Below are positions 1 to 23,877 of a stretch of DNA of 30,193 nucleotides, piece after piece; position 1 is the stretch's first letter, and each line of letters starts with the position of its first letter. This DNA is from a virus. The position numbers and the translations under genes were made by a program. The notes under the pieces were generated by a model, which saw only the letters and a program-made list of their open reading frames with translations, did no database searches and had not been told where the DNA came from. The stretch is from the IMG/VR virus record IMGVR_UViG_3300042154_000181, positions 1 to 30,193 of that record; one strand, 5' to 3'.

Positions 1-3000
1 CGCTTCACTGATGCGGACTGATCTCCGTCGAAGGCGTTGCCCATAGCGAACAGGCCACCACCAGCAAGAGCCTCGGCACGTTCTGTCTTGTAGGCTCTCC
101 AGCCCTGCATCACGTTACCCATTGGGTTGCTGCTGAGTTCAGACAGACCGATAGACTGGATCGAGTCTCGGATCAAGTTGTTGATCTTGAAGGTGGGAGA
201 CAAGGAGATGAAGCGAGTCAACGTAGTTTTAAAGCCACGCATGATGTCCATGCCCCATCCGTAGCTGGGCATCTGAGCAACAGCAGACAGTGATGTCAGA
301 AGGAACTCGTCGTCGATGCGGTAGAAGTTTTCTTTGCCCTTCTCCATAACCTTGACAGCGCCCTTCTCCTGCCTCTCCAGCTTGGTCACGATGTCGCCCA
401 TAGCTGTAGCGGATGTCAATGCTTCCACGGCGGCTTGGTTCTTCATCGAGGCTGACAGGATGTGCGTCCAGTTCATCAGGACGTTCTCCATCAGGTCGTT
501 GAGCGGACGCTCGCTGCCCTTTAGCTTCTTGGACAGATACTGACCAACAGCTCCAGAGCTGGTCTGGGCTGCCGACAGGCTGCCGTCATCTTCCATCTGT
601 CGATAGAACGGGATGTACCAGATGTCTGCGGAGAAGCGTTTGTACCCTTCTGCATCAATCAACCCGGTGTCCCTGGCGACATCCAGAACAGATCTGTTCA
701 GCTCGTTCATGTTCTTCAGGGTCTCGGCGTAAACAGCAAGACGAGACTTGCCATTCTTCATCGTACCCATGTTCAGGCCACGCAAAGACTTAATGTCTTC
801 GGGGCTGAAGAAACGCTCGCGCTCATCCTTCGACAGAGCTGCCGCACGGTTGGCTGCAATCCAAAGCAGGAAGCGATCAACCTCTCCACCGACAGGATCA
901 AGAACCTCCAGCAATCCCTGTGTTCCCTTCTTCACATTCAGTGCGCCGTCATCATTGAAGACTTGACCGTAATGCAGAAGAGCGGAGACAGCACCATCCT
1001 GAGAACCAGCAGACATGCGAAGCATGAGGTAGGCTTTCTGGCTGATGTCACGGACAGAACGGAACTTGTCGAACGTACCCTGAACGATACGCAGCGCAAA
1101 GTTTGGACGAAGGTGATCCAGTCTCTCCTTGATTGTGGGAGGAGAGTAGAAGCCTTTATTCAACGCACGTTCGCGGGTGTCTGGGCTGACATCAGAGAAT
1201 TGATCTTCGTATCTCTTACGGCTGAACATAGGGAAGCCATCGTTTGCAACCTGTTCTTGCACACTTTCAGGAATGACAAAACCAAGTTGCTGTCCTGTTG
1301 ACTCTATGTCAAAGACCTCAACTTTGCCGTCTGCCTTGAGGCTCTTCATGACATCCTTGGCAACAGACGGAAGTGTCTGGTTGTAGTATGGACGCAGATT
1401 TGCAGTCATCAACTTCATTTCCTCGCCAGTGAAAGATCCGCTAACTGTGTTGTATTTTTTGCTCTTTTTTGCACCCTTGCCTTCGAGTATGCGCTGAGCC
1501 ACTTTATCGCCAACATAGTCAGGCAAATCATTCTCTGAGATTCCTGGCGCAGATCTATCTGGTGTGCCACTCTTTTTTATGGTTAGGGTGTATGTGTTTG
1601 TATTGTTGTCCTTGACGTAGGCAAGCTCGTCGCCCTTGAACTGGTAACGCTCGTTCTGCTGTTCACCTGTTGTCCAGACAACCGTATCAATGCCAACTTT
1701 CTGGGCATAAGCCATTGCCCTCTTTAAAAGAAGAGCCGTCCAAGATTCTGTCTTCTCTACAAACGGAGCCATCGGCACTTCACCAATAGCAGGTAGTGTG
1801 CTGAGTTCATTTTCTACCTCGAAGAGTCTTGCTTCTTTTTCTTGAGCTTCCTTTTCAAACCCCGAAATAGTCGCCTCAAAAACGTCATCATCCATGTCTT
1901 CATACGCTTCTCTGTCTTCGCGCATGTTCTCAATGTCAATGACAAGATCGTCAAGTCGATCTTCAAGAGACTCGGCTTCTTTTTTCAAGCTTGCGGCACG
2001 AGCAGATAAAGCACTATCGCTTTTATTGGCGAAGCCTCGTTTCCTTCCTTCTTGCGCTCTCTGACTTTGAATCTCTTCAATGAATAAGACATCGTTTCCA
2101 TCTTTGTCTTTGCGCTGATTCATGCGAAGCCAGCCAATGGCCCTTCCTTGGGAGACATCTCCAAAGTGAACGTCATCGTCTTCTTTGTATTTGGCAATCG
2201 TGGGATCGAAAAGAACTAGCTCAACATAATTTTTCCCGCCGGGCAGTACAAGCCAATCATCCCCATGCTTTGGTCTTAGCATGTTGGTGACACGACCCCG
2301 TTGGAATCTTTCCATAAGGCGGCGGTGCTTATGCAAAAAGTTTTGCCAACCAAAGTTGTCGGTAATCCACTGGCGCATCTCCAGCTCTGTCATGTCGTCT
2401 GCGCCAGTTTCAAAAATAGACTCGTCTACGTCACCGATGTTATCTTCAAACTGATTTTCGGCAACCCATTCATCAATAAACTCACGCATGTCATCGGCAG
2501 TAGGCTCCCTAAACTCTGCAACTGGCGCACCATCTGGCCTATCACTGGTCAACAGAACATCATTGATGCCAACTTTGTTTGCTATAACCCATGTGCGAAC
2601 CTGATCTGGCGTAAGTTTTTCTTTTTCATTTAAGCTCAGCCAGTCGTTTATTCCTACGTATTCAATCTCTTCCTTCTTGACACCAATATTTGAGCGATTG
2701 GATTCAAGCCAAGCTTTCCACTGCTGACCAGTTGTTGCACCATTTTTATCGAGGCTGATTTTGGGATTAACAAATGCACGTTCGAGTGCAGAGTAGAAGA
2801 TCTCACCCTCTGGCTTGCGGCTGAACATGGGTGAAGGACGCTCTTGTTCCGCCTGCACTGGAGCAGGCTCTGCGACTGGTTGAGCTTCTGGTTGAGCTGG
2901 TGCTGCTGGCTGCTTCTGTTCAAAGTCTGCCAGAACGCTGACGATTGCTTGGCGTGCAGCAGCGACATCTGTCAACAGATTTTTGGAGTCCAGAGTCTGC

Positions 3001-6000
3001 TTGCTGCGGATCTTGTTCATTACTGAATCAAGGAAGTCCACAACAATTCTTGCGAGCTGTGTGAACATGCTTGGATTCTCATCGGCCATCATCTGCCAGA
3101 AGGAGGATTCACCGAATCTGTCTCCAACGATGTCGCCAATAGCTTCTTCCAGAATCAATGCTGGGTCTTTCATGCCCTCTTTGCTGAGCTGCGCTCGATA
3201 GGCATTCATGCCGCCCTGATCCAGATAGGGAGTCAGATGTTTTGTGAGCGCAGTATAAATTTCTTTATGGCTGAACCGCAAAGCATGAACCATCTCGTGG
3301 CCCAATACCCGAATGTGTGGTTGAGTGCTATTTACATTGACGAAGATTGTGTCTGACCCACTGAGGACAGCGCCGTCTATGAGGTCAACACTTCCCTTCT
3401 CCACTGCAAAATATACGAGCTTCTTTCCGAACAGATCGGCAATGCGTTGCATGGCAGGGAGGCCGGGAACCTTTCCAGCAAGATTGCCGAGAGGTACTCG
3501 CGTTGCGGTAAACGTCCCGCCTTCTCCTCCTTGTCTTGCAAGGTATCCTCTGACATCTTTGTTGAGGTCGTCAACGGTTTTGAGGTTGCCATATGCAAAA
3601 TCCCTTCCTGTTGTAGCTGCCTGCGGAGTTCTGCTTAGGCTGTACTTTGCGCCAGCCCCTGCCCCAATATTGCTTTCAACAATCTTTTTCATGCTGTTGA
3701 TTGCGCCCATAAGGTCGCCGTCATCAACCATCTTGTTCAGCTTAACAACGTCCTCAAAGTCAAGTCCGCCGTCTTCGTCTGCTCTGTTAATGCGCTCCTT
3801 AACACGAGCCTGCATTACAGGGTCAACTGCTGGTTTTACTTCTTGCGGTTGAGTCCCGCCTTCGACAGGCTGATCGCCACGGCCTGTTTCACCGCCGCCT
3901 GTTTGCTCTTCGGCCTTGACTCCCCGATCTTCCCCGACCGCTGAAACTTGTTCACCAGCTCCTTGACGTTGCTGCTTACCACCTTTTGTGACTTGCCTTG
4001 TTTGAGTGGCATCTGCTTCTCCTTGTTTTGATTTGTAGTCATTGACCAATCTATCAAACGCATCACCGGCCTGCTGAAGAACGAGCTGGTCTGTCTCTCC
4101 GCTGTCAGTGAGGGTATCAATCGTGTTTTGTCGGTATGCGTCCAGAGCCTCATCTAGTGAGGCGTACTCCCCAACTTGGTCAATTGCTGTATCAAAATTT
4201 GTTTTGGCGACACCAGCAAATTCGGCTCTTTGTGGTTGAACCGGAGCACCCGCCTCGACAGCAGGGGTTGTGACAGCAGGGGCTACTGCGGCAGGAGCTT
4301 TTGCCGCCTTCCCCTTCTTGCCCTTTACCGCCTTCGGCGCGATGACTGCTGGCGCTGCTGCTGTGACAGTTGGAACTGCTGGAGCGGTAGGGATAACGGC
4401 TGGCGTTACTACTGGAGCGGCAGGAGTCACTACCGGAGCAGCAGCGGTTGTTACCGGAGCAGATGGTGTTACTACCGGAGCTGCCGCAGGAGTTACCTCT
4501 GCTGGCTTCTTACGAGTCTCCACAAAATAGAACGTGCCGCCGCCTTCGGCTTTGGAGCGTTTACCCTGACGGATTCGCGCCTCAAGTCCCTGTCCGACCA
4601 AGTTTGTTTGGGCGTAGCCTCCGCTGCGCTGTCCTGTCTTTGCGTCTTTCGGGCCGAACAGAAAAGTCTCGGCAGCCTGGGGTGATGGGAATCTGTTCCC
4701 GACTGGGCCTTTGTCTGTTGTGATGCCGATCAATGGCTCGAAGCCTTGCTGTCTGGCAACCAAGTCTTCAGGCGACAGAGCAACCGTACCAGCCTGACCG
4801 CCTGCTGTCTCTGGCAGGATCACTGGTTGAGCTTCACCTTCGAGGGTGCGGGTCTCAAGATTGGGAGTTACGCTGGCTCGCTGGATGACAGGCTCGATTG
4901 CGCCTGTAGACCCACCGACTGCGGTAGATGCTGTCTCGCCAAATGCGGCAAGGACATCAGCCTCACGCTGCTTTCTGGTTTCAGCTCTGGCTTCAGGAGT
5001 TGGAGCCTCAAGGTCAACCAACATGCGCTGGGTAGCCAGTGCCTTGGTGACTACATTCTGGAATCTTGGATCGTCGCCAGACTCAATACCGTTGGCCTGA
5101 AGAATCGGGCCAAGATTGGGGTCGTCGAACATGGAGTCGAACAGTTCCTGACGACCATCATCGGAGGTCATATCAGCCTGAGCCTGCTCCAGAATCTGTC
5201 GAACTCTGTCGGGGGATGTCTTGCCTCCACGGAAAGCGCCGACCGCAGCACCAATAGTGCCGCCGCCTAAACCACCCAACGCAAAGGCATTGATGTACTC
5301 GTTCATGGCATCTTCGCCAGTGAGATCTTTGCCTGCGCCGAAACGCTCAATGGCTGTCTGGAATAGTTCTTGACCACCCTCAATACCAACACCAGCCGCA
5401 CCGCCAATCAGCGCACGACCGGGGCGACCAGCGCCGGGGATATTGATCTTGCCAGCCGCAACGCCCAAGCCAAGACGATCAACCGCCGCCTCAGACAGAC
5501 CGGCAACAACGCCAGATCCAAAGATTCGAGCCAAGTCACCGCCAGTCAGTTCGCGGCCTTCTTTCCCTGCCTGCTCTTCTGCCTCGCCATAAATGCCGCC
5601 AGTTGACTTGATGATGCCGGAGCCAACCAGAGCAGTACCAGAGCCAATGTTCTTGGCGACAGTCTTTGTAGCCTGCTTGAGCATCTGCTCCGTTGCAAAC
5701 TCAGCGCCTTCTTTTTCAGCCAGCTTAGCGGCTTCCTTGGCGACCATGCCTTCGATCAGATTCTTGGCAACACCTTGAACGGCCTGCTTTCCAACAGCAC
5801 CAGCACCAGCACCAGCCAAAGCACCGGCAGGGCCAGCAGTAAGTCCACCGATGGCAGATCCGAGGGCGGATGTGGCGACCGTCTCGACGATGCTGCCGCC
5901 AAGATAACCAACGCCATACTGCGCCCAATCAACCAAAGCACCAAGATCGCCCTGCTTAGCCTTGTCCCAAGCCTTGGTCACATCGTCTGTGTCCTTGGCT

Positions 6001-6530
6001 GTTGCGCCGATCTCTTTCATTCGGCTGCCGTACTCTCTCAGGCCATAGTTCTTCAGCGAAGTCATGGCTCCGCCAGTACCAAAGGCTTTCTCGCCAGCGG
6101 CTCCGGCAAAGCCAAGAGCGCCAAATGCTAAAGCTGGGGTCTGTGCCAGTGCTGTGCCGCCGCCTCGCATGAAGTCGCCGGTATCTTCGGTTGGAGCCTT
6201 CTCAACTGGCGTAGTTGTTGGAGAAGACTTTATGCCCATCAGATCATTGACGCTGAACATCTCGCTGGGCTTTGCTGTCGCAGTCTCCGATGGAGGTGGT
6301 TGACGGACAGCAGATCCCATGAGATCGTCCAAAGAGAAAAGATTGGCCGAGCCAGTCTGTTGCATTGAAGCCGATGATGACGGGGTAGAGATGGCGGTTC
6401 TGGGTTTTACGTCCCCGCCGTAAGATCTAGGAAGAACCTCAGTTCTTAGAGCTTCATCTTTTGACAGATAGAGAGAGTCATTTTCTCTGTCGATGTCCTC
6501 ATCGCCAAATAACGAAAGACCTGTTGCCAT
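1..6530 (-). CDS. Giant polyvalent zincin-containing protein, probably ejected internal virion protein (3' partial)
   Basis: One uninterrupted frame of 2,176 codons runs off the left edge; it begins at an ATG (6528-6530) preceded by AGAGG six bases upstream. Order of parts: an acidic N-terminus with two copies of an FS-x-x-DLMG motif (about residues 64-99); Gly/Ala-rich hydrophobic segments (about 125-435) resembling membrane-active parts of ejection proteins; a Pro/Ala/Val linker (678-763); a metallopeptidase-like segment with HEMVH at 1078-1082 and a candidate third ligand in an EEAIGD stretch near 1128; an MFSRK junction (1235-1239); a charged module with a coiled coil (about 1500-1577); a second MFSRK (1768-1772); then a helical C-terminal module with NLIRDS. 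The composition resembles the polyvalent proteins of phages and plasmids, including their large polyvalent-associated helical domains; that family link is from memory. Its place after two coiled-coil virion-like proteins suggests packaging and injection. The peptidase substrate is unknown. Confidence 0.85.
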   Translation of the reverse strand, partial: MATGLSLFGDEDIDRENDSLYLSKDEALRTEVLPRSYGGDVKPRTAISTPSSSASMQQTGSANLFSLDDLMGSAVRQPPPSETATAKPSEMFSVNDLMGIKSSPTTTPVEKAPTEDTGDFMRGGGTALAQTPALAFGALGFAGAAGEKAFGTGGAMTSLKNYGLREYGSRMKEIGATAKDTDDVTKAWDKAKQGDLGALVDWAQYGVGYLGGSIVETVATSALGSAIGGLTAGPAGALAGAGAGAVGKQAVQGVAKNLIEGMVAKEAAKLAEKEGAEFATEQMLKQATKTVAKNIGSGTALVGSGIIKSTGGIYGEAEEQAGKEGRELTGGDLARIFGSGVVAGLSEAAVDRLGLGVAAGKINIPGAGRPGRALIGGAAGVGIEGGQELFQTAIERFGAGKDLTGEDAMNEYINAFALGGLGGGTIGAAVGAFRGGKTSPDRVRQILEQAQADMTSDDGRQELFDSMFDDPNLGPILQANGIESGDDPRFQNVVTKALATQRMLVDLEAPTPEARAETRKQREADVLAAFGETASTAVGGSTGAIEPVIQRASVTPNLETRTLEGEAQPVILPETAGGQAGTVALSPEDLVARQQGFEPLIGITTDKGPVGNRFPSPQAAETFLFGPKDAKTGQRSGGYAQTNLVGQGLEARIRQGKRSKAEGGGTFYFVETRKKPAEVTPAAAPVVTPSAPVTTAAAPVVTPAAPVVTPAVIPTAPAVPTVTAAAPAVIAPKAVKGKKGKAAKAPAAVAPAVTTPAVEAGAPVQPQRAEFAGVAKTNFDTAIDQVGEYASLDEALDAYRQNTIDTLTDSGETDQLVLQQAGDAFDRLVNDYKSKQGEADATQTRQVTKGGKQQRQGAGEQVSAVGEDRGVKAEEQTGGGETGRGDQPVEGGTQPQEVKPAVDPVMQARVKERINRADEDGGLDFEDVVKLNKMVDDGDLMGAINSMKKIVESNIGAGAGAKYSLSRTPQAATTGRDFAYGNLKTVDDLNKDVRGYLARQGGEGGTFTATRVPLGNLAGKVPGLPAMQRIADLFGKKLVYFAVEKGSVDLIDGAVLSGSDTIFVNVNSTQPHIRVLGHEMVHALRFSHKEIYTALTKHLTPYLDQGGMNAYRAQLSKEGMKDPALILEEAIGDIVGDRFGESSFWQMMADENPSMFTQLARIVVDFLDSVMNKIRSKQTLDSKNLLTDVAAARQAIVSVLADFEQKQPAAPAQPEAQPVAEPAPVQAEQERPSPMFSRKPEGEIFYSALERAFVNPKISLDKNGATTGQQWKAWLESNRSNIGVKKEEIEYVGINDWLSLNEKEKLTPDQVRTWVIANKVGINDVLLTSDRPDGAPVAEFREPTADDMREFIDEWVAENQFEDNIGDVDESIFETGADDMTELEMRQWITDNFGWQNFLHKHRRLMERFQRGRVTNMLRPKHGDDWLVLPGGKNYVELVLFDPTIAKYKEDDDVHFGDVSQGRAIGWLRMNQRKDKDGNDVLFIEEIQSQRAQEGRKRGFANKSDSALSARAASLKKEAESLEDRLDDLVIDIENMREDREAYEDMDDDVFEATISGFEKEAQEKEARLFEVENELSTLPAIGEVPMAPFVEKTESWTALLLKRAMAYAQKVGIDTVVWTTGEQQNERYQFKGDELAYVKDNNTNTYTLTIKKSGTPDRSAPGISENDLPDYVGDKVAQRILEGKGAKKSKKYNTVSGSFTGEEMKLMTANLRPYYNQTLPSVAKDVMKSLKADGKVEVFDIESTGQQLGFVIPESVQEQVANDGFPMFSRKRYEDQFSDVSPDTRERALNKGFYSPPTIKERLDHLRPNFALRIVQGTFDKFRSVRDISQKAYLMLRMSAGSQDGAVSALLHYGQVFNDDGALNVKKGTQGLLEVLDPVGGEVDRFLLWIAANRAAALSKDERERFFSPEDIKSLRGLNMGTMKNGKSRLAVYAETLKNMNELNRSVLDVARDTGLIDAEGYKRFSADIWYIPFYRQMEDDGSLSAAQTSSGAVGQYLSKKLKGSERPLNDLMENVLMNWTHILSASMKNQAAVEALTSATAMGDIVTKLERQEKGAVKVMEKGKENFYRIDDEFLLTSLSAVAQMPSYGWGMDIMRGFKTTLTRFISLSPTFKINNLIRDSIQSIGLSELSSNPMGNVMQGWRAYKTERAEALAGGGLFAMGNAFDGDQSASVK
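4240..4500 (-). repeat. Pro/Ala/Val-rich imperfect repeat (linker) inside the giant gene
   Basis: The coding strand repeats short units that encode variants of APVVTP or APAV about ten times, covering residues 678-763 of the giant protein, and ends in a Lys/Gly/Ala stretch. Such a segment is expected to be extended and flexible, separating the hydrophobic N-terminal third from the peptidase and helical modules. The near-repeated DNA could allow length changes by slippage. Confidence 0.7.
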
Positions 6531-6541
6531 TGATTGCCTCT

Positions 6542-7849
6542 TTAATCAGCAAAGATTTGTACGCCGCCGTAGTCAAAATACGAACGCCCTGTTTTTGGAT
6601 CAGACTTTCTCGCAGGCAGTTTGCCTGATGCGGCGGCCTTGGCAGCACCAATCAAAATCTGCGGATCAGTTTTTGGATTCAAAGAGGCCAGATTGACTGC
6701 GATATTTCTACCAACAGTATCATTTTGGATAGATAGTTTTGTCGCCTCGACATCTGGCCCAACACTCTCCTCTAGCTTGAGAACCCTGTCGGCGTTCGGG
6801 AAGCTCTTTGTGATGCTCTCTACCTTGGCCCTGACATCAGCACCTTTGACTTGATCGTCTAGAGCAGCCCTCTGAGCGGAACGAAGATCTCTTGTTGCAA
6901 GAGCACCTATGCGCTCGACACCAATCTTCTCTCTCTGGAGAGCAACGTCTTCTTTGCGGTTGGCTGCTGCTGTCGCACGTTCCTCTTCGTAGCGTTTTGT
7001 GCTCATGTTTATTTCAAGAGCCTTAACTGGATCTAGCAACTTTAATGAAGCATACAAAGATTGTTGATCCATTGGTCGCATTTGAACAGCACCAGTTTTG
7101 TCGTCAACAACAGCTAGGTTATATGTCCCTGTCTTTGGATCTTGCGTGGTTCTTTTTGCGTCGATGCTTTTTCCATCATCAATGAACTGATAAACCTTTT
7201 GCAGCGCGGGTACTACCTGCTCAGGAGGGGCGTTAGCCGCAATAAGAGCTGCCGCCTTTTTCCTTTGGAAGTCATACCCCTCCTCTTTGAACTTCTCAAT
7301 ATCTCTGTCCACCATAATGGCTCGACCAAAGTCTCCTTTTGCAATCAGAGACTTTTTCATAGCATTGCCAATTAGCTGGTACTTCAGATTGTCAGCAGCT
7401 CGCTGGTCTGCGTATAAGCCCTCACCGCCTGACTTAAAGAGGTTCTCCTCTTCCGGAGTAACCGAGTTTGACTGGGCCTCCGGTGATGGTCTAACCCCAA
7501 GTCTTTGCATTTCCGCTTGGCCGTAGCTGCGATCACCCTTCTGTTCGACAGATTGAGTGGCCTGCTGAAGAGCCTGAACTTTCGTTGGATCTGCTAGATC
7601 CGCAAAAGCACCACGACCAAACTTCTGATCTTCCATCGCCGAAATAGCTTCTTGCTTTGCAGAGTCCTCAATCTTGGCCTGCTCCTCTTCTCGCTGCGCC
7701 CTTGTTTGTTCCAAGGCAAAACGCTGGCGCTCTCTTTCGTCTCGCTCTTCTTCGCGCTTCTGCAAGGCATCCATGCGAGACATCTCTTTGCTGGTCTTGT
7801 ATCCCTCGACAGCGCCTTTTACAAAGCTACCTAATCCTGTTGCCATCAT
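6542..7849 (-). CDS. Coiled-coil internal virion-like protein
   Basis: A 435-residue protein with no recognisable catalytic domain. Residues 20-70 are extremely rich in Glu, Arg, Gln and Lys and should form a long coiled coil. A second charged helical region is near residues 280-340, and the C-terminus (ending in a YFDYGG segment) looks compact. The start codon overlaps the previous stop (ATGATG, TGA inside), and a second ATG follows at once, so the true N-terminus is probably MATGL, the same five residues that begin the next gene. Its position between another virion-like protein and the giant zincin protein matches the internal or ejection protein set of short-tailed phages. The role as an ejected core or channel protein is inferred from position and composition only. 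Confidence 0.7.
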   Translation of the reverse strand: MMATGLGSFVKGAVEGYKTSKEMSRMDALQKREEERDERERQRFALEQTRAQREEEQAKIEDSAKQEAISAMEDQKFGRGAFADLADPTKVQALQQATQSVEQKGDRSYGQAEMQRLGVRPSPEAQSNSVTPEEENLFKSGGEGLYADQRAADNLKYQLIGNAMKKSLIAKGDFGRAIMVDRDIEKFKEEGYDFQRKKAAALIAANAPPEQVVPALQKVYQFIDDGKSIDAKRTTQDPKTGTYNLAVVDDKTGAVQMRPMDQQSLYASLKLLDPVKALEINMSTKRYEEERATAAANRKEDVALQREKIGVERIGALATRDLRSAQRAALDDQVKGADVRAKVESITKSFPNADRVLKLEESVGPDVEATKLSIQNDTVGRNIAVNLASLNPKTDPQILIGAAKAAASGKLPARKSDPKTGRSYFDYGGVQIFAD

Positions 7850-9015
7850 GCGCTCCTTTTATTCAGTGCTCTGCGTTTTTGAACAACCGCTGGAGTGTGA
7901 GTCGCCTTGACCAACTTGTCGAGCTTCTTGACTCCGATTGCTTTTACTGTGTCTGCTGGGATGACGTACTCGCCGTCTGACAGCATGGCTGGGATCTTGT
8001 CATCAACAGGCCCACCAGGGCCAGTGACTTTGCCGCCGCGACCAAGGCGCTTAATAGTTCCGCCATCTGCCTTAAACAACTTACCAATAGCCGCAGAGCC
8101 GCCCGGAGATCCTGCGTACATACCAGCAATGCCTCCGAGAGCGCCAAACGCATCTGACTGGTTTGCCATCTGTGTGTTGTAGCCCTGCATCCTTGCGTTG
8201 AACTCTTGTCCATAAATGTTTCCGGCTGTGCCAAAAGATGAAGAGGCTCCACCCAGCATCTGTCCAGTCTGTCCGTAGGACTTACCCATAAACTCAGAGG
8301 GAGCCATGTAGCTTCCTCCCGCAGAAGTTCCTGCGGACACAGCAGTACCCGCCGCCGCAGTAGCATTGGATGCAAGACCGCGACCAAGTGCGGCTGCATC
8401 GTACAGACGAGCGCGACCCATCTCCTCAGATGCGATTCTTGATTTAGTAGCTACACCAGCACGAGCCGCTGCCTCGCCTTGACCAAGCTGAGCATTGATT
8501 GCTGCAAAGCGAGCAGAGTTAGGATTGATGCCGTACTTCGCCATCGTATCTAATGCCTGCTGGCGCTGAACCTGATAGGCGCTGGCTACGTCAGCCATAC
8601 CCTGAGAGGCAAGTTCTTCTTGCTTGGCGGCAGTGTTGTAGTCCTCCGCTTCAGCGACAAGCCTCTTCTCTAAAGGGCGAAATGTTTCGCGCTCGTAAGT
8701 TGCATACTCTTCTGCACGTTTGGCTGTGTCAGACATGATCTTTTTCTGAGCAGAGGCAATCTCTTTCAGATCATCTTTAAAGTCTGCATACTGCTCTTTA
8801 GAGAAATTCAGATACTCCATAGCAGTATCTTTTTGCATCTGACCAATTTCTCTCGACGCTTCTGCTGATGCAATCATTCCGGGGTTTGGATCAGGTGCGG
8901 CTGGCGTATCACCGCCAAAATCGAGCTGGCAAACAGATGACCCACATGCGCCATTCTGCTCTCTAAGATAGTCGAGCTTATATTGAGCGATTTGTTTTTT
9001 GGTTCCAACTTTCAT
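7846..9015 (-). CDS. Internal virion (ejection-type) protein with DGEYVI motif
   Basis: A 389-residue protein. Residues 45-150 are a long Gln/Glu/Lys/Ala-rich helical region. It is followed by a segment with YGINPNSARFA, then a Gly/Ala/Ser-rich hydrophobic stretch (about 205-310). Near the C-terminus comes GPGGPVDDKIPAMLSDGEYV, a motif that recurs in phage internal virion and tape-measure-like proteins. This order (helix, Gly/Ala-rich hydrophobic part, DGEYVI tail) fits proteins released from the virion with the genome. The gene starts with an ATGA overlap on its upstream neighbour and ends with the same overlap into the next gene, so the three proteins are likely made together. The N-terminus carries two Cys (CGSSVC), whose meaning is unclear. 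Confidence 0.75.
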   Translation of the reverse strand: MKVGTKKQIAQYKLDYLREQNGACGSSVCQLDFGGDTPAAPDPNPGMIASAEASREIGQMQKDTAMEYLNFSKEQYADFKDDLKEIASAQKKIMSDTAKRAEEYATYERETFRPLEKRLVAEAEDYNTAAKQEELASQGMADVASAYQVQRQQALDTMAKYGINPNSARFAAINAQLGQGEAAARAGVATKSRIASEEMGRARLYDAAALGRGLASNATAAAGTAVSAGTSAGGSYMAPSEFMGKSYGQTGQMLGGASSSFGTAGNIYGQEFNARMQGYNTQMANQSDAFGALGGIAGMYAGSPGGSAAIGKLFKADGGTIKRLGRGGKVTGPGGPVDDKIPAMLSDGEYVIPADTVKAIGVKKLDKLVKATHTPAVVQKRRALNKRSA

Positions 9016-9452: not shown

Positions 9453-9645
9453 TGAAATTCAGCCTTGCAATAATCTCGTTAACTTTTAAAACCGTCTCAG
9501 CAAGAGTTGCATCTGTTGGGAGCTTGGTTATTGCTCCCTCACGGATGCCAGTGATGATCTCTATGTTTTCTTTCATTGGCCTGAGTATCGTAGCGATAGA
9601 GACATCTTGTATAGATAAAGATGTTGGGATAGCTGGCTTTTTCAT
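9445..9645 (-). CDS. Small hypothetical phage protein
   Basis: A 66-residue protein with a proline-containing N-terminus (MKKPAIPTSLS), then a segment with RPMKENIEIITG and a C-terminal helix with many Ile and Leu (TVLKVNEIIARLN). The start overlaps the nozzle-like gene's stop as ATGA. The pattern, in which a short loop-forming part is followed by a helix used for oligomerisation, is common in small structural proteins of short-tailed phages, but no function can be assigned. The last eight bases are shared with the next gene. Confidence 0.65.
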   Translation of the reverse strand: MKKPAIPTSLSIQDVSIATILRPMKENIEIITGIREGAITKLPTDATLAETVLKVNEIIARLNFNE

Positions 9646-11453
9646 AGCTGCGCCAATTCTTTTGCTGTCTCTGCGATCTTGAATGCTCTAAGAGGAACAT
9701 TGCCGCTGAGTCTGAACTGCCATCTGTCGCTCTTGAATCCAGATGGAAGGCGATATGTTGATCTGTCAGTAATAGATGTTGTTGACACCAACACTCCGTT
9801 GCAATAAATCTTTACTTGCAGGCTAAGAGTCGACACGCCGCCGGGGATTTTCTGAAGTATTGATCCACCTAAAACAATTTTGCCAATCTCAACACTACCT
9901 AGTGTAGAGAGAAGGTCAACGCCAGATGCAAAAACTGTTTGATTTTCAGCAATGATTGCATCAACTTCATCTTGCAACGCAGAAACTAAAGCAATATCTT
10001 CAAAGGCAGCATCTATCTGTATGGCAGAAAAGTTAACTGGTCGTGGGAGTATGTATAACTTAGACATCCAATCATAGGTGAGAAAGTTTAATGCGTCTGT
10101 TTCCCATGCGCTAACCACTCCGTTGTATGGAAAGAAAAGCTGCGCCGTGGTTGGATCAATAAATACTGCTGTTGTAAAAATACTTGTTGTAGTCAAGGCT
10201 GAGGCGGATTCGTTCCTGTCTAGGATTAAACACTCTTGGACAGCATTTGCTTGATCTTCCCAAAACAGGTAATACGCTCCATCTAATACAGCGCCCAGCA
10301 TGGTAGCTGGGTATCTAAGTTGCCACTCGTCACGAGTGAACAATCCATTTGTTGTTACCCCAGCAAAGCCCTGAGAGATCTTCACAACCCCGTTGGGTGA
10401 CGCATACATCACGCCTGTGTCGTCTGAGACGATTGATCTCTTAGAAACACAAGGCTCAAAGAGAGGTATCTTTGCCTGAGACATTGAGGATGGTGTCGAT
10501 CCGCTGATGATGAATGGATTACCTTTTGTTGCAACAACAACAGATTCTCCGAATGCGCCAAGCCCAACAATAGGGAACTCAACAGTTAATGAGTATTCAA
10601 CAGGCCATGCGTGAGGAATGTAAGGCTCAGAGAAATATATCTCGTTGCCTCTAAACCCAGCCAATATACCGTTAGCCATTGCCACAATACCCTGAAGGTC
10701 TGATGGGGGTGTGTTGTAGCTGGATGACTCAAGAGCGCCACCTAGCTGAGCGGCTGTTGTTGTATCTGAATAAGATGCTGCGCCAATGGCAACATCCGCA
10801 ACTTTAAGATATATGGTTGTTGACGTACCAGATACAGCTCGATAGATTCTCTTTGTTGTTATGTTGTAGTCGCCAGCAGGAGCTGTTGTTCCAAGACCAG
10901 AAACGGTAACAGTTCCACCAGGAAGAACAGATACAACAGATGAAGCAGGAGATGGGGCTGACTCTTCTTCTGTAGTCCCAAATATTGATATATACGTAAA
11001 CAAATAAACACGACTCTCTGCCGTACCAGATCCTCCGGCAGCAGATACGCTGGGGGCAGATGTTGGCGCAGGCACTCCCATCTCATAGTAATCACCGGGG
11101 AATGGTGCTGTGCCAGTTTCCGAGAGAGTTGAGTTTGTTTTCTTTGGGGTTCCGCTACCTGTGTAGTAGATTGGATTTAGGCCAGTATCAAAGATTGGGC
11201 TTGGCACAACATTCACATCTGTTGACCACGACAACCACAAATCATCGCCAGCAACATTCTTGTGTTTGTATATTGACTTGACGCTTGAGGCTAAAGACGC
11301 AGCCCCTTCGACAACTCCCGGTTTATTCCACGCCCGAAGCTCTCCGCTATACAGTTTTGTATTGATTGCTATGGTGGCCTCATTGTCTTTCAACAAAGCA
11401 GGGCCTACCCTCGGCGCAATGCCAGCAAAAGCGGAGATCTTCAGTGCGGCCAT
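9642..11453 (-). CDS. Tail nozzle/hub-like structural protein
   Basis: A 603-residue, beta-rich protein with a start codon directly after the endolysin stop (TAAATG). The sequence shows repeated short strands and loops with aromatic and Gly turns, a FSEPYIPHAW segment and a following GNPFIISGSTP segment, which is the style of beta-propeller tail proteins such as the P22 gp10 / tubular tail protein group. Residues 120-240 look like Ig- or fibronectin-like strands (Ser/Thr/Ala-rich), and the C-terminal 130 residues look like another beta domain. It probably forms the distal tube or nozzle below the adaptor ring. The assignment rests on composition, size and gene order; no domain search was possible. 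Confidence 0.6.
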   Translation of the reverse strand: MAALKISAFAGIAPRVGPALLKDNEATIAINTKLYSGELRAWNKPGVVEGAASLASSVKSIYKHKNVAGDDLWLSWSTDVNVVPSPIFDTGLNPIYYTGSGTPKKTNSTLSETGTAPFPGDYYEMGVPAPTSAPSVSAAGGSGTAESRVYLFTYISIFGTTEEESAPSPASSVVSVLPGGTVTVSGLGTTAPAGDYNITTKRIYRAVSGTSTTIYLKVADVAIGAASYSDTTTAAQLGGALESSSYNTPPSDLQGIVAMANGILAGFRGNEIYFSEPYIPHAWPVEYSLTVEFPIVGLGAFGESVVVATKGNPFIISGSTPSSMSQAKIPLFEPCVSKRSIVSDDTGVMYASPNGVVKISQGFAGVTTNGLFTRDEWQLRYPATMLGAVLDGAYYLFWEDQANAVQECLILDRNESASALTTTSIFTTAVFIDPTTAQLFFPYNGVVSAWETDALNFLTYDWMSKLYILPRPVNFSAIQIDAAFEDIALVSALQDEVDAIIAENQTVFASGVDLLSTLGSVEIGKIVLGGSILQKIPGGVSTLSLQVKIYCNGVLVSTTSITDRSTYRLPSGFKSDRWQFRLSGNVPLRAFKIAETAKELAQL

Positions 11454-15250: not shown

Positions 15251-16048
15251 TTATTTAGATTGAATTAAATTTCGTTTAAGGTGATTCTCTAGACAAGCGC
15301 CTATCAAACCATCTTGCTGAGAGATATGGTAGCCACGCTGTCCATACGCCATGAAATGTGGGTAAGACCATCTAAAAACACCGTTGCGTGAAAACATAAT
15401 TTTGTAAGCATTGATCCATGTGGACAATTTAAAAAAGCCACCCATGCGCCAAACATTGCTGGTTGTCTGCCGAACAAGCTCAATTAAATTTAAGATATAC
15501 ATGGCTCGCATCCATTTAATGCGCCATTCTTCTGAACCGTCCAAGTCCCTGTACAAATCTATTGCAACTTTTCTATGGTTTATTTCTTCTACAGCGTGCC
15601 ACACCCAAAGTTTTTTGGTTGCAGGATCAGCGTTATCAAGTATGTGTTGGTTTTGCAAAACCCAACAAGCTAAAATTGTTGTCAGATGCTCTATTGCGGC
15701 AGTAGAGGCAACGTAGTGCCTAGAGTTTTTTCCCTTTATTCTTGCAACACGCCTTGCTGTCCTAGTCGACCAATTGTTTACAAATCCATATGTATCAATG
15801 TTTTTTTGATTGTGAATTACATGCGCCCTACTGTGATTCATTTCTTCTTTACAAAATCTATCAATTTCAGATTTCCACTTTTCTTTTAACTGTGGCGAAA
15901 GATCGGCAAATCCCCTTTGTAACGAGTCAATAAAAAAATCTTCACCGCCTGGAAAACTCATTGACAACGCACACATGATAGCCGTTACAAATGAATCAGG
16001 CTTACCCCACTCAACTGGTTTGCCATTGTTGAACAGTTCAATTTGCAT
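15251..16048 (-). CDS. Ferritin-like di-iron enzyme, predicted metal-dependent hydrolase family
   Basis: A 265-residue, all-helical protein with the complete ligand set of a ferritin-like four-helix di-iron site: Glu36 (in FPGGEDFF), Glu69-x-x-His72, Glu120 (AIEHLT) and Glu155-x-x-His158 (WHAVEEINHRK). A further His76 and His151 flank the site. Size and motif order match the bacterial family annotated as predicted metal-dependent hydrolases (PF10118, COG3687, named from memory). The reaction is not known; related folds carry out hydroxylation, desaturation and N-oxygenation. The gene is four bases downstream of the preceding stop and lacks a clear ribosome site, suggesting translational coupling. 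Its place between fibre genes is unusual and suggests action on the host surface, lipid or a virion component, which is inference. Confidence 0.8.
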   Translation of the reverse strand: MQIELFNNGKPVEWGKPDSFVTAIMCALSMSFPGGEDFFIDSLQRGFADLSPQLKEKWKSEIDRFCKEEMNHSRAHVIHNQKNIDTYGFVNNWSTRTARRVARIKGKNSRHYVASTAAIEHLTTILACWVLQNQHILDNADPATKKLWVWHAVEEINHRKVAIDLYRDLDGSEEWRIKWMRAMYILNLIELVRQTTSNVWRMGGFFKLSTWINAYKIMFSRNGVFRWSYPHFMAYGQRGYHISQQDGLIGACLENHLKRNLIQSK

Positions 16049-16556: not shown

Positions 16557-17614
16557 GATACTGCTCCATAAACTCTTGTTGTGTTTCCGCTTACCCACGT
16601 AACAGAAAAACCATTTAGCGCAACAGCTTTTCCTCCTGCGCCGCTTGTGTAGCCAAAGCCTTTAAAGCCACCTGATGCTCCCCAGCCACCACCACCAGCG
16701 CCCCCATCTTGGCCTCCAGCGTCTCCGGTAGCGTTTGCAGAACCTCCAGCACCGCCGGTAAATAAAGTTCCTACTCCCCCTGCACCACCCGATCCTGGCA
16801 AAATTCGTCCACCGGCTCCGCCTGATCCACCAAATCCACCCTTACCACTGTCCAGTCCACCGCCACCACCGCCAGCGCCTCCGCCAAAACCCGACGATGT
16901 TGTAGTAACATTAGTGCCATTGGCTCCAGTTGCGCCAGGGCCACCTCCAGTGGCGTTGTAAGCACTATAGTTTGGAGGATTACCACCAAAACCACCACCA
17001 GCGCCACCGCCACCGCCGCCTTGCTGACCAGCAATACCACCTACAGATCCACCACCACCACCGCCAGCAATATAAGCGCCGCCATTTGTGTTGTTTATGG
17101 TTGCAGACATGCTTAGACTTAATGCGGTGCTGCCATTTGAACCCGCTTGAGGGCCACCCGCTACCGTTGTGTTTTGACCACCGCGACCACCGCCACCAAG
17201 AATAAATCCATTATTGACAATAGTTAATGTGTCACCAGTTGTGCCGCCCGAAAGTGTTAACCCAACTCCTGGCACAGCCGATGTGTTACTTGTACTTGCA
17301 TAAACATAAACACCTGAACCAATAGTTACCGTTATATCTGATTTACCAGCGATATATCCACCAATAGCGGATAAGTTTAAAGAAGCATCTGCGGTGTTTG
17401 ATGAATATGTAAATGAAATAGCAACTCTATTTGCTTTTCCGTAAAGCGAACTCATGCTCCAAGCTGTTCCACTGCCACCAACACCAGCAAGAGTACGCAC
17501 GTTGGCTTGATCCATTGTGATTGTTGATGTCAATCCCAAACCAAGTTCTTGAGCAACACTAACAGGGCTGGATGTACCGCCCATGTTCAATGGCCCACTT
17601 GCTGGCATTACCAT
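16553..17614 (-). CDS. Glycine-rich tail fibre tip / adhesin-like protein
   Basis: A 353-residue protein. The N-terminus (MPASGPLNMGG, ELGLGLTSTITMDQANVRTL, then SSLYGK) matches a pattern widely seen at the start of phage tail proteins. Residues 110-310 are extremely glycine-rich, with runs like GGGGGGSVGG and GGAGGGGGGLDS, as in polyglycine-helix adhesin tips that display variable loops. The C-terminus has a NTTRVYGAVS end. The start overlaps the upstream fibre's stop as TAATG and has GGAG eight bases upstream. It is probably a second receptor-binding or fibre-tip protein. Confidence 0.75.
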   Translation of the reverse strand: MVMPASGPLNMGGTSSPVSVAQELGLGLTSTITMDQANVRTLAGVGGSGTAWSMSSLYGKANRVAISFTYSSNTADASLNLSAIGGYIAGKSDITVTIGSGVYVYASTSNTSAVPGVGLTLSGGTTGDTLTIVNNGFILGGGGRGGQNTTVAGGPQAGSNGSTALSLSMSATINNTNGGAYIAGGGGGGSVGGIAGQQGGGGGGAGGGFGGNPPNYSAYNATGGGPGATGANGTNVTTTSSGFGGGAGGGGGGLDSGKGGFGGSGGAGGRILPGSGGAGGVGTLFTGGAGGSANATGDAGGQDGGAGGGGWGASGGFKGFGYTSGAGGKAVALNGFSVTWVSGNTTRVYGAVS

Positions 17615-19956
17615 TATTTAGACTCCAATGCCTTCAATCTTGCTTCAAGATCTACAACACGTTGTGCAAGTTTTACACAAGCTACCAAGGCGGCGTTTCC
17701 GTATGCCACAGACAGGTTGCCATTTTCATCTTCTAAAACTGCGTGTTCCATGATTGGTCGTAATGCTTGTGCTGATACACCGACTTGTGTAATCTCTTCA
17801 TCAATACGATCATATATTCCGTGTTTTACAGTGGCAAGTTGCTCAACAAAATTAGGTTGCAAGTCGCGCCAATTTTTCTTTTTGCGTTCATCCGAATAGG
17901 CTGTGACGTTGGCGGTGGCGGTGACGTTGCCGGAACCATCCCATTGGATTAGCCATGTGCTATCTGCTTTGTTGTAGATGCCACCATAGCCATCGGAAGA
18001 TCGAGCCATCAACGTATTACAGTTTGTGCCAGCAGTATCTTTAAAGTTTAAACCCGCCCAACTTCCCTTTTCTCCCCTTATAGTCATCGCCCCATAAGTT
18101 GCACTTGAGCCACCTGTTGCTGTAAATGTCGTTCCCGACATTGCAATGGTAGTTGCACTTACTGTACCGCCTGATTGGTTTGTTGCTGTTGTAGCAGTAG
18201 CCGCATTACCAGTACAAGAGCCTGATGATCCTGTGACGTTGCCGGTAACATTACCTGTTAAGTTTCCAGCAAACGCTGTGGCTGTGAGCAGTCCAGTGCT
18301 TGGGTTAAATGAAAGCTTAGTGCTGGAAGTCCTGACCGAGGAGAATGAACCTGAGTTTGATGTAGACAGTGCTGGGTAATACGTGGCATTGGTTGTCGTA
18401 TCGTCGGTGATATTTGACCCTGCACTAGCCCATGCAAATGCTGATCCATCCCACTTCAGAAACGTATCAGTTGTTGTTGGCGCAACTGCAAATGCAGATG
18501 CCCCAGATCCTGTTTGATAAGCAATACGATTGGCTCCACCACCAGCAAGATTTGTTGCTGTTGTCGCCGTATCTGCATTACCCACCAATGCCGCTGTAAT
18601 TGTTCCTGCGGTGAAGTTGCCGCTCGCATCTCTCTGAACGATTGCCAGAGCCGTGTTTGCGTTTGTCGAACTTGTCCATGTCGGAACAGATGCGCCGCCA
18701 GATGTAAGAACTTGTCCAGCAGTGCCAGCGACAGAGAAATCAAAAGAGTCTGCTGTTCCGTAAGCAATACCACCAGCAACTGGGGCTGAGGGTATCAGAC
18801 TCTTCTTAACAGCAGAAGCAACTCCAGATCGAGCATCTGATGTGGACAGATACTGTGGGTGGTCATCATCTGTTAACCCAGACAAGTTCCCATGATCTGT
18901 GACAAGAGCCGCAGCCACTCCAACAGAAGAGATACTTCTGATGTCCGTGATGCCCCTTAATCTTGCGTGGGGAGTATTTGAATAGGGGCTGTTAGACTGG
19001 AATATAAGCTTGTACAGCGGCCTGAACTCAACAGATGGGAATCCTGGCAAGTCCAAATCCTCAAACACGGCAGCTTCTGCATTGTTTAGCGTGGACAGAT
19101 TTGATTGGCTGATTACTCCAACTACCGGATAGTTAAGGTTGTTGGTTGCAAGAATCCATGTACACGTGAAGTCTGTATTGGCTACATCAACAAGAGTCCA
19201 AACACCGCCAATAAACAGGTTGTACTGTGGCCTAGCTGTTCCCTGCTTAACGGGATAGTCGGTTGGAGATGTGATTCTCCACTCACTTCCTTCAAGATAC
19301 AGAATTGGTATGCGAGCTGGGCTGTTGAGATCTTGCTCAAATGTATTTGCTGTTGGAGTGTTGGACGAAACAATGTCAATCTGCATGTCCTCGTCAAAGA
19401 ACGTGCCGCCTTCTATCGTTATCTGTGCATCTGCATCTGCACTTCCGTCCCCAGACAAGGTGTATCCACTGGCTGCAAATCCATTTGCTATTGCTGCGCC
19501 GCGAGTTCTGTGAAGGTACTCGTGTGTTTGCCAGTCAAGAGTAACACCATGACGTTCATCGGCAAAGTAAACAGCCTCGTTGTTTGTTGCGTTCCAATAA
19601 ACATAAGATGTTGGCGCATCTTCATCCCACGTGAAGAATGACATCTTTGTTGACAACACGCCAGACGAGCTGAAGTAAATGTAATGAAGGCCAGCAGTGT
19701 CTGGAATAACAACTGTCTGTGCTGTTGTGTAGGTGTACTTCTCGCCCTTACACCAGACAACAAAGTTCGCGCCAACAGGGGTAATCGTGAATGTGCGTGT
19801 ACCCGCATCAAACGAAATCGTTGACTGTGTTTTATCGGCATGGCCCATAGGCTCGCCCATGACAGTCTGCGACTCATTGAGACTGGTTAGGTTGGCATCC
19901 ATCTCCGCATTGGTTAGCGGAGAACCCTTGCCCGAGCGAGTTGTAATTGCGGCCAT
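17614..19956 (-). CDS. Tail fibre/spike with C-terminal S74 intramolecular chaperone
   Basis: A 780-residue protein. The N-terminus (TTRSGKGSPLTNAEMDANL) is a common phage fibre start. A beta-rich body follows, then low-complexity repeats such as GNLTGNVTGNVTGSSG and GNADTATTATN. The last 95 residues are an intramolecular chaperone of the endosialidase type (peptidase S74): AYSDERKKKNWRDL carries the Ser-Asp pair, then GVSAQALRPIMEHAV and a C-terminal coiled coil. In this family the chaperone drives trimer folding and then cuts itself off just before the Ser. This is the largest fibre in the window and the first of three in series. Receptor or substrate is unknown. Confidence 0.85.
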   Translation of the reverse strand: MAAITTRSGKGSPLTNAEMDANLTSLNESQTVMGEPMGHADKTQSTISFDAGTRTFTITPVGANFVVWCKGEKYTYTTAQTVVIPDTAGLHYIYFSSSGVLSTKMSFFTWDEDAPTSYVYWNATNNEAVYFADERHGVTLDWQTHEYLHRTRGAAIANGFAASGYTLSGDGSADADAQITIEGGTFFDEDMQIDIVSSNTPTANTFEQDLNSPARIPILYLEGSEWRITSPTDYPVKQGTARPQYNLFIGGVWTLVDVANTDFTCTWILATNNLNYPVVGVISQSNLSTLNNAEAAVFEDLDLPGFPSVEFRPLYKLIFQSNSPYSNTPHARLRGITDIRSISSVGVAAALVTDHGNLSGLTDDDHPQYLSTSDARSGVASAVKKSLIPSAPVAGGIAYGTADSFDFSVAGTAGQVLTSGGASVPTWTSSTNANTALAIVQRDASGNFTAGTITAALVGNADTATTATNLAGGGANRIAYQTGSGASAFAVAPTTTDTFLKWDGSAFAWASAGSNITDDTTTNATYYPALSTSNSGSFSSVRTSSTKLSFNPSTGLLTATAFAGNLTGNVTGNVTGSSGSCTGNAATATTATNQSGGTVSATTIAMSGTTFTATGGSSATYGAMTIRGEKGSWAGLNFKDTAGTNCNTLMARSSDGYGGIYNKADSTWLIQWDGSGNVTATANVTAYSDERKKKNWRDLQPNFVEQLATVKHGIYDRIDEEITQVGVSAQALRPIMEHAVLEDENGNLSVAYGNAALVACVKLAQRVVDLEARLKALESK

Positions 19957-22749: not shown

Positions 22750-22913
22750 GCGGCCTCTTTAAACAGTTTGATGGTGATCTCGTCCTGCACGGAAACCTCG
22801 TCGTCAGTTGGCTTCTTTGGCTTTGGCTCGTCTACGACCACCTCGTACCCCAGCTCCAGCAGCTTCTCGTCGTAGACCACTATCCTGCCCGTGCGCTTGT
22901 TTCTCATGAACAT
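22746..22913 (-). CDS. 55-residue protein overlapping the glycosyltransferase end
   Basis: A short gene: 55 residues from ATG at 22911-22913, with GGGAG six bases before it, to a TGA that overlaps the next ATG. The product starts MFMRNKRTGRIVVYDEKLLE, continues with LGYEVVVDEPKPKKPTDDE and ends in an acidic tail with IKLFKEAA. The regular Lys/Glu-rich pattern, good ribosome site and overlap with the next gene make it more gene-like than the competing glycosyltransferase frame in the same bases. Function not recognised. Confidence 0.7.
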   Translation of the reverse strand: MFMRNKRTGRIVVYDEKLLELGYEVVVDEPKPKKPTDDEVSVQDEITIKLFKEAA

Positions 22914-23832: not shown

Positions 23833-23860
23833 AAAAAGGGAGGAGGCCGAAGCCTCCCCC
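23833..23860 (-). terminator. Intrinsic terminator after the major capsid gene
   Basis: On the minus strand a nine-base-pair stem (one G-U pair) with a TTCG loop, GGGGGAGGC-TTCG-GCCTCCTCCC, is followed by TTTTT. It begins 17 bases after the capsid stop. The T run abuts the ATG of the glycosyltransferase. A terminator right behind the capsid gene is also found in T7 (Tphi), where it lets capsid transcripts exceed downstream ones. Confidence 0.85.
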
Positions 23861-23877
23861 AATTCCTCGGCAACTGC

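Follow-up and report, generated by a model that had tools for sequence, protein, structure and literature searches.

We find that the giant gene at one end of the window, the whole 30,193-nucleotide stretch of DNA analyzed here, encodes what is, judged from its sequence and predicted structure, a phage-type polyvalent protein, in which swappable modules are joined to a conserved C-terminal chassis with an LPD38 domain. Our preferred reading, to which we give about an even chance, is that this protein is virion-borne and ejected, and that its zincin-like module most likely frees the modules at tagged borders, releasing a GNAT-like acyltransferase.

Architecture of the giant protein

The window constitutes an entire phage fragment in IMG/VR (virus record IMGVR_UViG_3300042154_000181), and the giant gene is therefore cut at the contig end. 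It is a single frame (6530..3, minus strand) that starts with ATG directly downstream of AGAGG and runs off the contig without reaching a stop codon; a full-length version is present on a near-identical contig, L002 (Table 1). A preliminary description of this DNA had recognized the single frame of more than 2,176 codons, along with a Gly/Ala stretch, a Pro/Ala linker, the HEMVH motif, a coiled coil (a long helix pair in the model), and a helical C-terminal module, all of which we recover. Absent from that account were the GNAT-like module, the tags at the module borders, and an additional 458 chassis residues. A BLAST block map indicates that the middle modules are swapped between relatives.

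Table 1. Features of the giant gene and neighboring genes in the window
Feature	Position	Strand	Basis
Giant polyvalent protein gene, 5' part	3..6530	minus	2,176 codons; complete protein of 2,634 aa in L002
N-terminal region, residues 1-690	4461..6530	minus	BLAST block map; kept in window clade and sister clade
Gly/Ala-rich stretch, residues ~120-435, inside N-terminal region	5226-6173	minus	sequence
Pro/Ala-rich linker, residues ~680-760	4251..4493	minus	homology blocks end there
Border tag 1, KYSLSR, residues 962-967, before zincin-like module	3630..3647	minus	sequence comparison
Zincin-like metallopeptidase module, residues ~976-1205	2916..3605	minus	AlphaFold2 secondary structure and alignments
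HEMVH motif, residues 1078-1082	3285..3299	minus	H, E, H invariant in 19/19 (alignment A2)
EE of EEAIGD, residues 1128-1129, candidate third metal ligand	3144..3149	minus	both Glu invariant in 19/19; later helix of model
Border tag 2, PMFSRK, residues 1234-1239, between zincin-like and GNAT-like modules	2814..2831	minus	
GNAT-like module, residues ~1240-1767, with coiled-coil insert ~1500-1583	1230..2813	minus	AlphaFold2 model and fold searches
Border tag 3, PMFSRK, residues 1767-1772, before chassis	1215..1232	minus	
Mostly helical C-terminal chassis, residues 1775-2176	3..1208	minus	runs to 2634 beyond window (L002)
Possible virion/ejection protein, 435 aa	6542..7849	minus	position and weak PHROG matches: tail protein E 4.7e-4, virion structural E 0.016
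Virion protein, 389 aa, homologue of BcepIL02 gp66	7846..9015	minus	phrog_8003 E 3.7e-47; blastp E 2.2e-18 to frame at gp66
Virion protein, 603 aa, BcepIL02 gp63 type	9642..11453	minus	phrog_511 E 2.9e-145

The LPD38 chassis and the virion context

Beyond the window, residues 2322-2503 of L002 match Pfam LPD38 (PF18857) with an E value of 2.9e-32 and 112.7 bits, against a curated cutoff of 27, which upholds the earlier assignment to the polyvalent proteins. At least two unrelated domains are joined in one polypeptide (zincin-like module, GNAT-like module, and LPD38 chassis), and the gene lies among late virion genes, as is characteristic of phage-type polyvalent proteins. The chassis matched 62 viral predicted structures at E values of 0.001 or below, the best two with TM scores of 0.92 and 0.93 over the chassis length. 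Among solved structures, none of 667 chains reached a Z score of 8 in VIA-align, and a chassis profile gave chance-level matches to PDB sequences. A marginal transmembrane-like stretch, at a median position of chassis +532, was seen in 53 of 113 proteins.

Two ejection-type genes had been placed in front of the giant gene; this stands for the gene at 7846-9015, which has clear virion support, whereas that at 6542-7849 has weak PHROG matches only. The virion setting itself agrees with both the neighboring genes and a related LPD38 giant, gp69 of phage JC1, which is virion-associated by mass spectrometry with 51 unique peptides (PMC9144972). The giant protein of the window phage is probably packed in the virion and injected with the DNA.

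The same evidence bears on a different view of the protein, namely, that it works mainly as an ejectosome component in the manner of T7 gp16, whose helical chassis would help to form a DNA channel with the enzymes as passengers. The gp16-type ejectosome protein of T7 has an N-terminal lytic transglycosylase domain; Pfam returned no such domain in L002 at E values up to 1, which speaks against this view. Neither a gp16-type nor any other ejectosome fold is among the chassis fold matches listed, a result that decides little either way. The mostly helical chassis, the position of the gene behind virion genes, and the transmembrane-like stretch would fit it, and we regard it as a real possibility, if short of probable, that is compatible with self-cutting.

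The zincin-like module and its association with the chassis

In the AlphaFold2 model, residues ~976-1205 form a helix, three strands, a helix bearing HEXXH, and a later helix bearing EE. This zincin-like layout matches the metallopeptidase-like module that had been suspected around GHEMVH. The HExxH motif and the downstream EE are invariant in all 19 sequences of alignment A2, some of which are relatives at 17 to 24% identity, and the motif is therefore not a matter of chance. The alignment and the model together place HExxH on a helix and an invariant Glu pair on a later helix, where the third ligand of a zincin is expected; the EE pair is our candidate for that ligand. Members of the sister clade (L028, L041, and L043) carry HExxxH at the equivalent position. 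We infer from these features that the module has a zincin fold and activity.

The profile search proposed earlier speaks against this. No Pfam zincin family, including the polyvalent MPTase model, matched the window protein or full-length L002 at E values up to 1, and none matched the modules of L041 and L125 at E values up to 0.5. A profile of the module gave chance-level matches to PDB sequences, and no zincin entry is among the matches listed in fold searches of the model, which barely probed this module, their matches being taken up by the GNAT-like region and the coiled coil.

The motif accompanies the chassis almost without exception. Of 93 proteins with a complete 5' end, 92 carry HExxH or HExxxH ahead of the chassis, and after thinning at 80, 60, and 45% the counts are 56/57, 38/39, and 24/24, respectively (2.2, 1.9, and 1.2 expected from shuffling). 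Eight control patterns occurred before the chassis in at most 9/57 proteins, none of the zincin motifs fell within the chassis part, and omission of loci from the zincin search left 52/53. Only 1 of 57 representatives is zincin free. Because the other modules vary while this motif persists, we favor self-processing among the roles raised in the preliminary description, which had also named action in the cell or on the cell wall; no support was found for cell-wall action by the zincin-like module.

Alternatively, the zincin could be an effector that enters along with the DNA and cleaves proteins of the host, such as those of defense or regulation, rather than the giant itself. Iyer et al. give host-targeting zincins as an alternative to autoprocessing (PMC5512222), and the diversity of motif types among chassis proteins (HEXXH, HEXXXH, and HEWWH), with two or three motifs in some proteins, would suit such a role. 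That at least one motif persists as other modules are gained and lost suggests instead that the chassis protein itself, rather than any one host, creates the requirement, and we consider the host-effector role unlikely.

The GNAT-like module

The coiled coil reported previously is present, not as a separate part but as an insertion within the second, GNAT-like module. In VIA-align, 17 of 50 rows for this module are acetyl- or acyltransferases (Z scores of 8.0 to 9.3, rmsd of 3.2 to 6.1, 122 to 150 residues), to be read with the caution that models lacking any clear match often reach best Z scores of 7 to 8. Foldseek ranks 1 to 7 are all spermidine/spermine acetyltransferase, with E values of 0.041 to 0.056 and none at 0.001. 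These results provide moderate evidence for a GNAT fold in the model, and on that basis an acyltransferase activity with a target in the host or phage may be presumed. The modules inserted in L011 and L015 gave no Pfam match at E values up to 0.5.

Tags at the module borders

A short motif recurs at the borders. In 10/10 proteins of the window clade, the wider tag [FY]S[RQLMT][KRSG] occurs once per border from the zincin onward, giving three tags where there are two middle modules and four where a third is inserted; the border near residues 690-836 carries no tag. In other lineages we scored a strict tag, [FY]S[RQLMK], in an interval that opens 50 aa ahead of the chassis start and closes 5 aa past it, with the window-clade representative removed. 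It was found in 18 of 62 lineages (2.7 expected) and in 13 of 41 (2.0 expected), both with p 5e-6, the floor of the simulation, and controls were not enriched; the pattern had been chosen from window-clade tags, but the border stretches of other lineages had already been seen. Among lineages added once the pattern was fixed, the counts were 5/17 (0.75 expected, p 5e-4) and 3/14 (0.66 expected, p 0.02). At 45% thinning the tag was found in 4/25 (p 0.02), as was the control [FY]D (4/25, p 0.056), and 44 of the 62 lineages have a chassis border without the strict tag. The chassis also occurs in the E. coli phages Pondi and PTXU04; the Pondi giant has the motif HEIVVH, and QYSAP lies close to its border.

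Elsewhere in the proteins, strict tags were found at 26 of 76 starts of exchanged blocks (13.3 expected, p 3e-4) and were mildly enriched around the zincin (12/59, 6.2 expected, p 0.012), with one control reaching p 0.02 in each case. A blunt 7-mer comparison, asking whether border stretches are more alike within than between proteins, gave p values of 0.028, 0.46, and 0.74 at 95, 70, and 60% thinning, respectively; the resemblance thus fails on stronger thinning, which we count against cutting at the borders. Another motif at the borders, [IVL]R[AFY], occurred in 20/62 lineages against 5.3 expected; it was picked after looking, and we make no claim for it. No description of the border tags was found in the open-licence literature searched. 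PLxRFG, a name from NCBI annotation, was considered and rejected: no NCBIfam model so named matched L002, L011, or L030, and one paper that uses the name offers no mechanism.

These data also bear on whether the tags are cut at all. They might be traces of module exchange through a short shared recombination sequence, or flexible linkers, with the zincin serving another role. The two PMFSRK copies of L002 are identical at 16 of 18 DNA bases, module exchange is evident at the places where tags lie, and the similarity of borders within a protein is lost on thinning, all of which we count in favor of this reading. On the other hand, the tag serine in L018 and L020 is encoded by TCT at one border but by AGC at the following one; because no single silent base change joins these codons, the amino acid itself seems to have been kept. 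The same tag class moreover recurs in distant lineages. On balance, uncut tags seem to us somewhat unlikely.

Discussion

Self-cleavage of the giant, and cleavage at the tags in particular, would account for its organization as follows. The polyvalent giant would travel in the virion and be ejected together with the DNA, the constant LPD38 chassis serving to package or deliver it. The middle would be a swappable payload, here the zincin and the GNAT-like acyltransferase. The zincin would act on the giant itself, before or after ejection, and free the modules at or near the borders marked by KYSLSR, PMFSRK, and PMFSRK, after which the GNAT-like module might acylate its target.

This raises the broader possibility, which we put forward tentatively, that LPD38 giants in general are self-cutting delivery polyproteins, in which a zincin almost always accompanies the chassis, the payload lies between lineage-specific recognition tags, and the tags are the cleavage sites for the autoprocessing predicted by Iyer et al. 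Any module between tags would then be released on delivery, with FSRK as the tag class here, FRxx together with a HExxxH zincin in the sister clade, and RAEVP in another family. Autoprocessing of polyvalent proteins by zincins has been predicted since 2017, with no site proposed in the available text of Iyer et al. (PMC5512222); the nearly universal zincin motif in LPD38 giants and the border tag make the idea specifically testable. If true, the architecture would be a natural plug-in system that delivers several enzymes with phage DNA.

The earlier judgment that this arrangement had not been described was half right, as Iyer et al. (2017) describe the polyvalent class and predict autoprocessing by its MPTase domains (PMC5512222). 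The window protein resembles their phage-type members in being very long, in joining unrelated modules (zincin, GNAT, and LPD), and in lying among virion genes, and it differs in that its zincin-like module lacks a Pfam match and its GNAT-like module carries a coiled-coil insert. Neither border tags nor the almost invariable association between zincin and LPD38 was found in the available text of that paper, in the main part of which LPD38 appears once.

Among individual giants, JC1 gp69 and BcepIL02 gp70 are "DarB-like" proteins of Lessievirus podophages, of 4,515 and 4,667 aa, respectively (PMC9144972). The former shares LPD38 with the window giant, but its table lists LT-like, COG4646, YtxK, and LPD3 matches that set it apart (PMC9144972). 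The latter shares the chassis (partial profile match, E value of 9.5e-39) and lies behind homologues of the 603- and 389-aa window genes; a tblastn search with the window protein gave 32 records, BcepIL02 not among them, and the link is made by profile alone. DarB and DdrB of P1, compared by description, are likewise large and head-packaged; DdrB reportedly contains a zincin and undergoes processing (PMC5512222). DarB has an N-terminal 30-residue capsid signal (PMC9024508). The N4 virion RNA polymerase, RP4 TraC1, and pSa ArdC contain such domains and yet travel uncut (PMC5512222), which speaks against self-cutting. The N4 protein is, like the window protein, a giant protein with a zincin from a virion gene, but it differs in its RNA polymerase module and in being packaged without processing (PMC5512222).

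RESULTS

The giant gene and its setting

Record IMGVR_UViG_3300042154_000181 (30,193 bases, class virus) is complete in the window, and the single long frame noted in the preliminary description was confirmed: the giant gene is open at the contig end after 2,176 codons, and its product reaches 2,634 aa in the near-identical contig L002. In the relative L007, the gene is split into two overlapping frames (1,769 and 1,055 codons), which may be a sequencing error or a real break. The window portal matched 36 GenBank phage records, of which the 15 listed show 26-31% identity and belong to Rhizobium, Sinorhizobium, Roseobacter, and Puniceispirillum (HMO-2011) phages. The giant protein matched 32 phage records, and in no case was at least 80% of it covered in one place.

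Features of the giant protein (aa, residues) and of the window (nt)
Feature	Position	Remark
Giant gene	nt 6530..3 (-)	ATG start after AGAGG
Border tags	aa 962-967, 1234-1239, 1767-1772	KYSLSR, PMFSRK, PMFSRK
Zincin-like module	aa ~976-1205	
GNAT-like module	aa ~1320-1767	
Coiled coil	aa 1500-1583	541-624 of the model
Chassis	aa from ~1770	contains Pfam LPD38
Virion structural protein gene, 389 aa		upstream of giant gene
Internal virion protein gene, 603 aa		upstream of giant gene
Tail fibre genes		upstream; one with S74 domain
Predicted metal-dependent hydrolase	nt 15251-16048 (-)	PF10118, E 2.2e-51; amid tail fibre genes
Tail fibre protein	nt 17614-19956 (-)	C-terminal Peptidase_S74 (chaperone of endosialidase) domain
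Major head protein gene		upstream
Glycosyltransferase family 9 gene	nt 22804-23862 (-)	heptosyltransferase-like, Pfam E 1.8e-16; adjoins major head protein gene
Portal gene		upstream
M15 endolysin, Rz-like spanin		interspersed among upstream virion genes

A conserved chassis and an exchanged middle

When the L002 protein was compared with its relatives by BLAST, the C-terminal chassis was common to all that are long enough to reach it (the window family shares 45-47% identity there with a more distant family), and residues 1-690 were common to the window and sister clades. The middle is exchanged, in blocks that start or end near 690, 831, 976, 1218-1245, 1500-1585, and 1770. The chassis model is mostly helical (pTM 0.75, mean pLDDT 78). 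At E 0.001 or better it matched 62 predicted structures of viral proteins, and many of these are named "large polyvalent protein associated domain."

The residues of the GNAT-like module, as modelled, resemble GNAT acetyltransferases. Foldseek placed spermidine/spermine acetyltransferase at ranks 1-7, yet with E values of 0.041-0.056. Acetyl- or acyltransferases occupied 17 of 50 VIA-align rows (Z 8.0-9.3; GCN5, PCAF, NatA, NatD, NAT9, Klebsiella N-acyltransferase, and TacT3 and AtaT, which we take to belong here), and five more (Z 9.5-9.8) came from isocitrate lyase 2 or Rv1916, which have a GNAT-like domain at the C-terminus. The other 28 rows matched the coiled coil, which was noted in the preliminary description and which the model places as an insert within the GNAT-like fold; it is missing or different among relatives. 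GNATs in polyvalent proteins are reported by Iyer et al. (PMC5512222). BcepIL02 (gp65, L163) and Itty13 (L164) have annotated stand-alone acyl- or acetyltransferase genes that follow the 603 aa homologue among the virion genes; in BcepIL02 this gene lies shortly before the giant gene.

The zincin motif travels with the chassis

Across 19 aligned relatives, the H, E, and H of HExxH are invariant, as are a D and the EE that lies 50 residues further along. In an AlphaFold2 model of 816 residues (pTM only 0.51), the module runs helix, three strands, HEMVH helix (pLDDT 82-88), more helices, and EE helix (80-81), with block values of 58-89. The GHEMVH metallopeptidase-like module proposed earlier is supported by its layout and invariant residues, although it has no Pfam match and the fold-search rows fell on the GNAT-like and coiled-coil parts. 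Iyer et al. (PMC5512222) give the same order for polyvalent zincins and already describe the HExxxH variant, found here at the zincin position in eight sister-clade proteins (L028, L041, L043, L062, L064, L066, L083, and L101), in which border stretches are FR-type.

Among chassis proteins gathered from viral contigs, genome contigs, phages, and further genomes, HExxH or HExxxH, a proxy for zincin that marks its carriers as candidate peptidases, preceded the chassis in 92 of the 93 whose 5' end is complete (the exception being L174). After thinning at 80, 60, and 45% chassis identity, the motif was present in 56/57, 38/39, and 24/24, against 2.2, 1.9, and 1.2 expected from shuffles, while eight control patterns reached at most 9/57 and the chassis itself held neither motif. 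With loci from the zincin search removed, the counts were 88/89 and 52/53, and the later-added proteins alone gave 24/25. Single linkage, in which chaining is possible, placed 50 motif regions in one group, followed by groups of 7, 4, and 2 and four singles.

Tags at module borders

From the zincin onward, each module border in all ten window-clade proteins carries one tag, [FY]S[RQLMT][KRSG], which makes three tags in proteins with two middle modules and four where a third is inserted. Two matches lie away from borders (L015 at 65, L023 at 1395), and the border near 690-836 has no tag in this clade. The ~580 aa insert of L011 (~1300-1880), without a Pfam match, is flanked by two tags. Four proteins (L015, L017, L018, and L020) have a ~150 aa insert between FSQK and MFSRK tags, with a YHQT start that is ART-like by eye; the L015 copy had no Pfam match.

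The class [FY]S[RQLMK], drawn from window-clade tags after border stretches of other lineages had been inspected, occurred at the chassis border of other lineages in 9/25 of a first set (1.1 expected) and in 18/62, 13/41, and 4/25 of a larger set containing the first one (2.7, 2.0, and 1.1 expected; p 5e-6, 5e-6, and 0.02, the first two being the simulation floor), where controls were not enriched save [FY]D at 45% (p 0.056). Lineages added once the pattern was fixed gave 5/17 (0.75 expected, p 5e-4) and 3/14 (0.66, p 0.02), with controls at p 0.1 or more. The tag was over-represented at the starts (26/76 versus 13.3) and ends (23/76 versus 11.2; one control p 0.02) of exchanged blocks, and weakly enriched around the zincin (12/59 versus 6.2; one control likewise p 0.02). 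Other lineages seem, by eye, to have their own repeated border motifs (MFRRK, RAEVP, and PAFHRA); the test for within-protein likeness of border stretches failed once lineages were thinned.

The borders might instead be uncut linkers or traces of recombination, which we consider unlikely. Two L002 tag copies match at all but 2 of 18 bases, as would suit recombination. In L018 and L020 the codon of the tag serine is TCT at one border but AGC at the following one, a pattern that favours selection at the amino acid level.

DISCUSSION

BcepIL02 resembles the window in that its chassis protein, gp70, sits behind homologues of the 603 and 389 aa genes. JC1 gp69, a related LPD38 giant (4,515 aa), was detected in virions by published mass spectrometry (51 unique peptides, 15.6% coverage; PMC9144972). 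On this homology and gene position, the window giant is very probably a virion protein and would be injected into the host. A role mainly in the ejectosome, which is compatible with self-cutting, is possible but short of even chances.

Self-cutting into functional pieces would fit a zincin motif that is nearly constant, a payload that is exchanged, and borders that carry tags. Our best explanation is that the giant is ejected and its own zincin frees modules at or near the tagged borders; we hold this with even confidence, lowered slightly because tags are absent from some borders. That the zincin is an effector acting on host proteins is a rival reading that we consider unlikely. The earlier interpretation of the protein as a whole, as a polyvalent protein that could be injected and act in the cell or cell wall, or process itself, is partly supported.

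Iyer et al. (PMC5512222) proposed self-cutting of polyvalent proteins generally and also listed uncut counter-examples. The pairing of chassis with zincin and the border tags are the parts worth following, and they turn that general prediction into specific cleavage tests. The giant protein is of the already known polyvalent kind, as a new variant.
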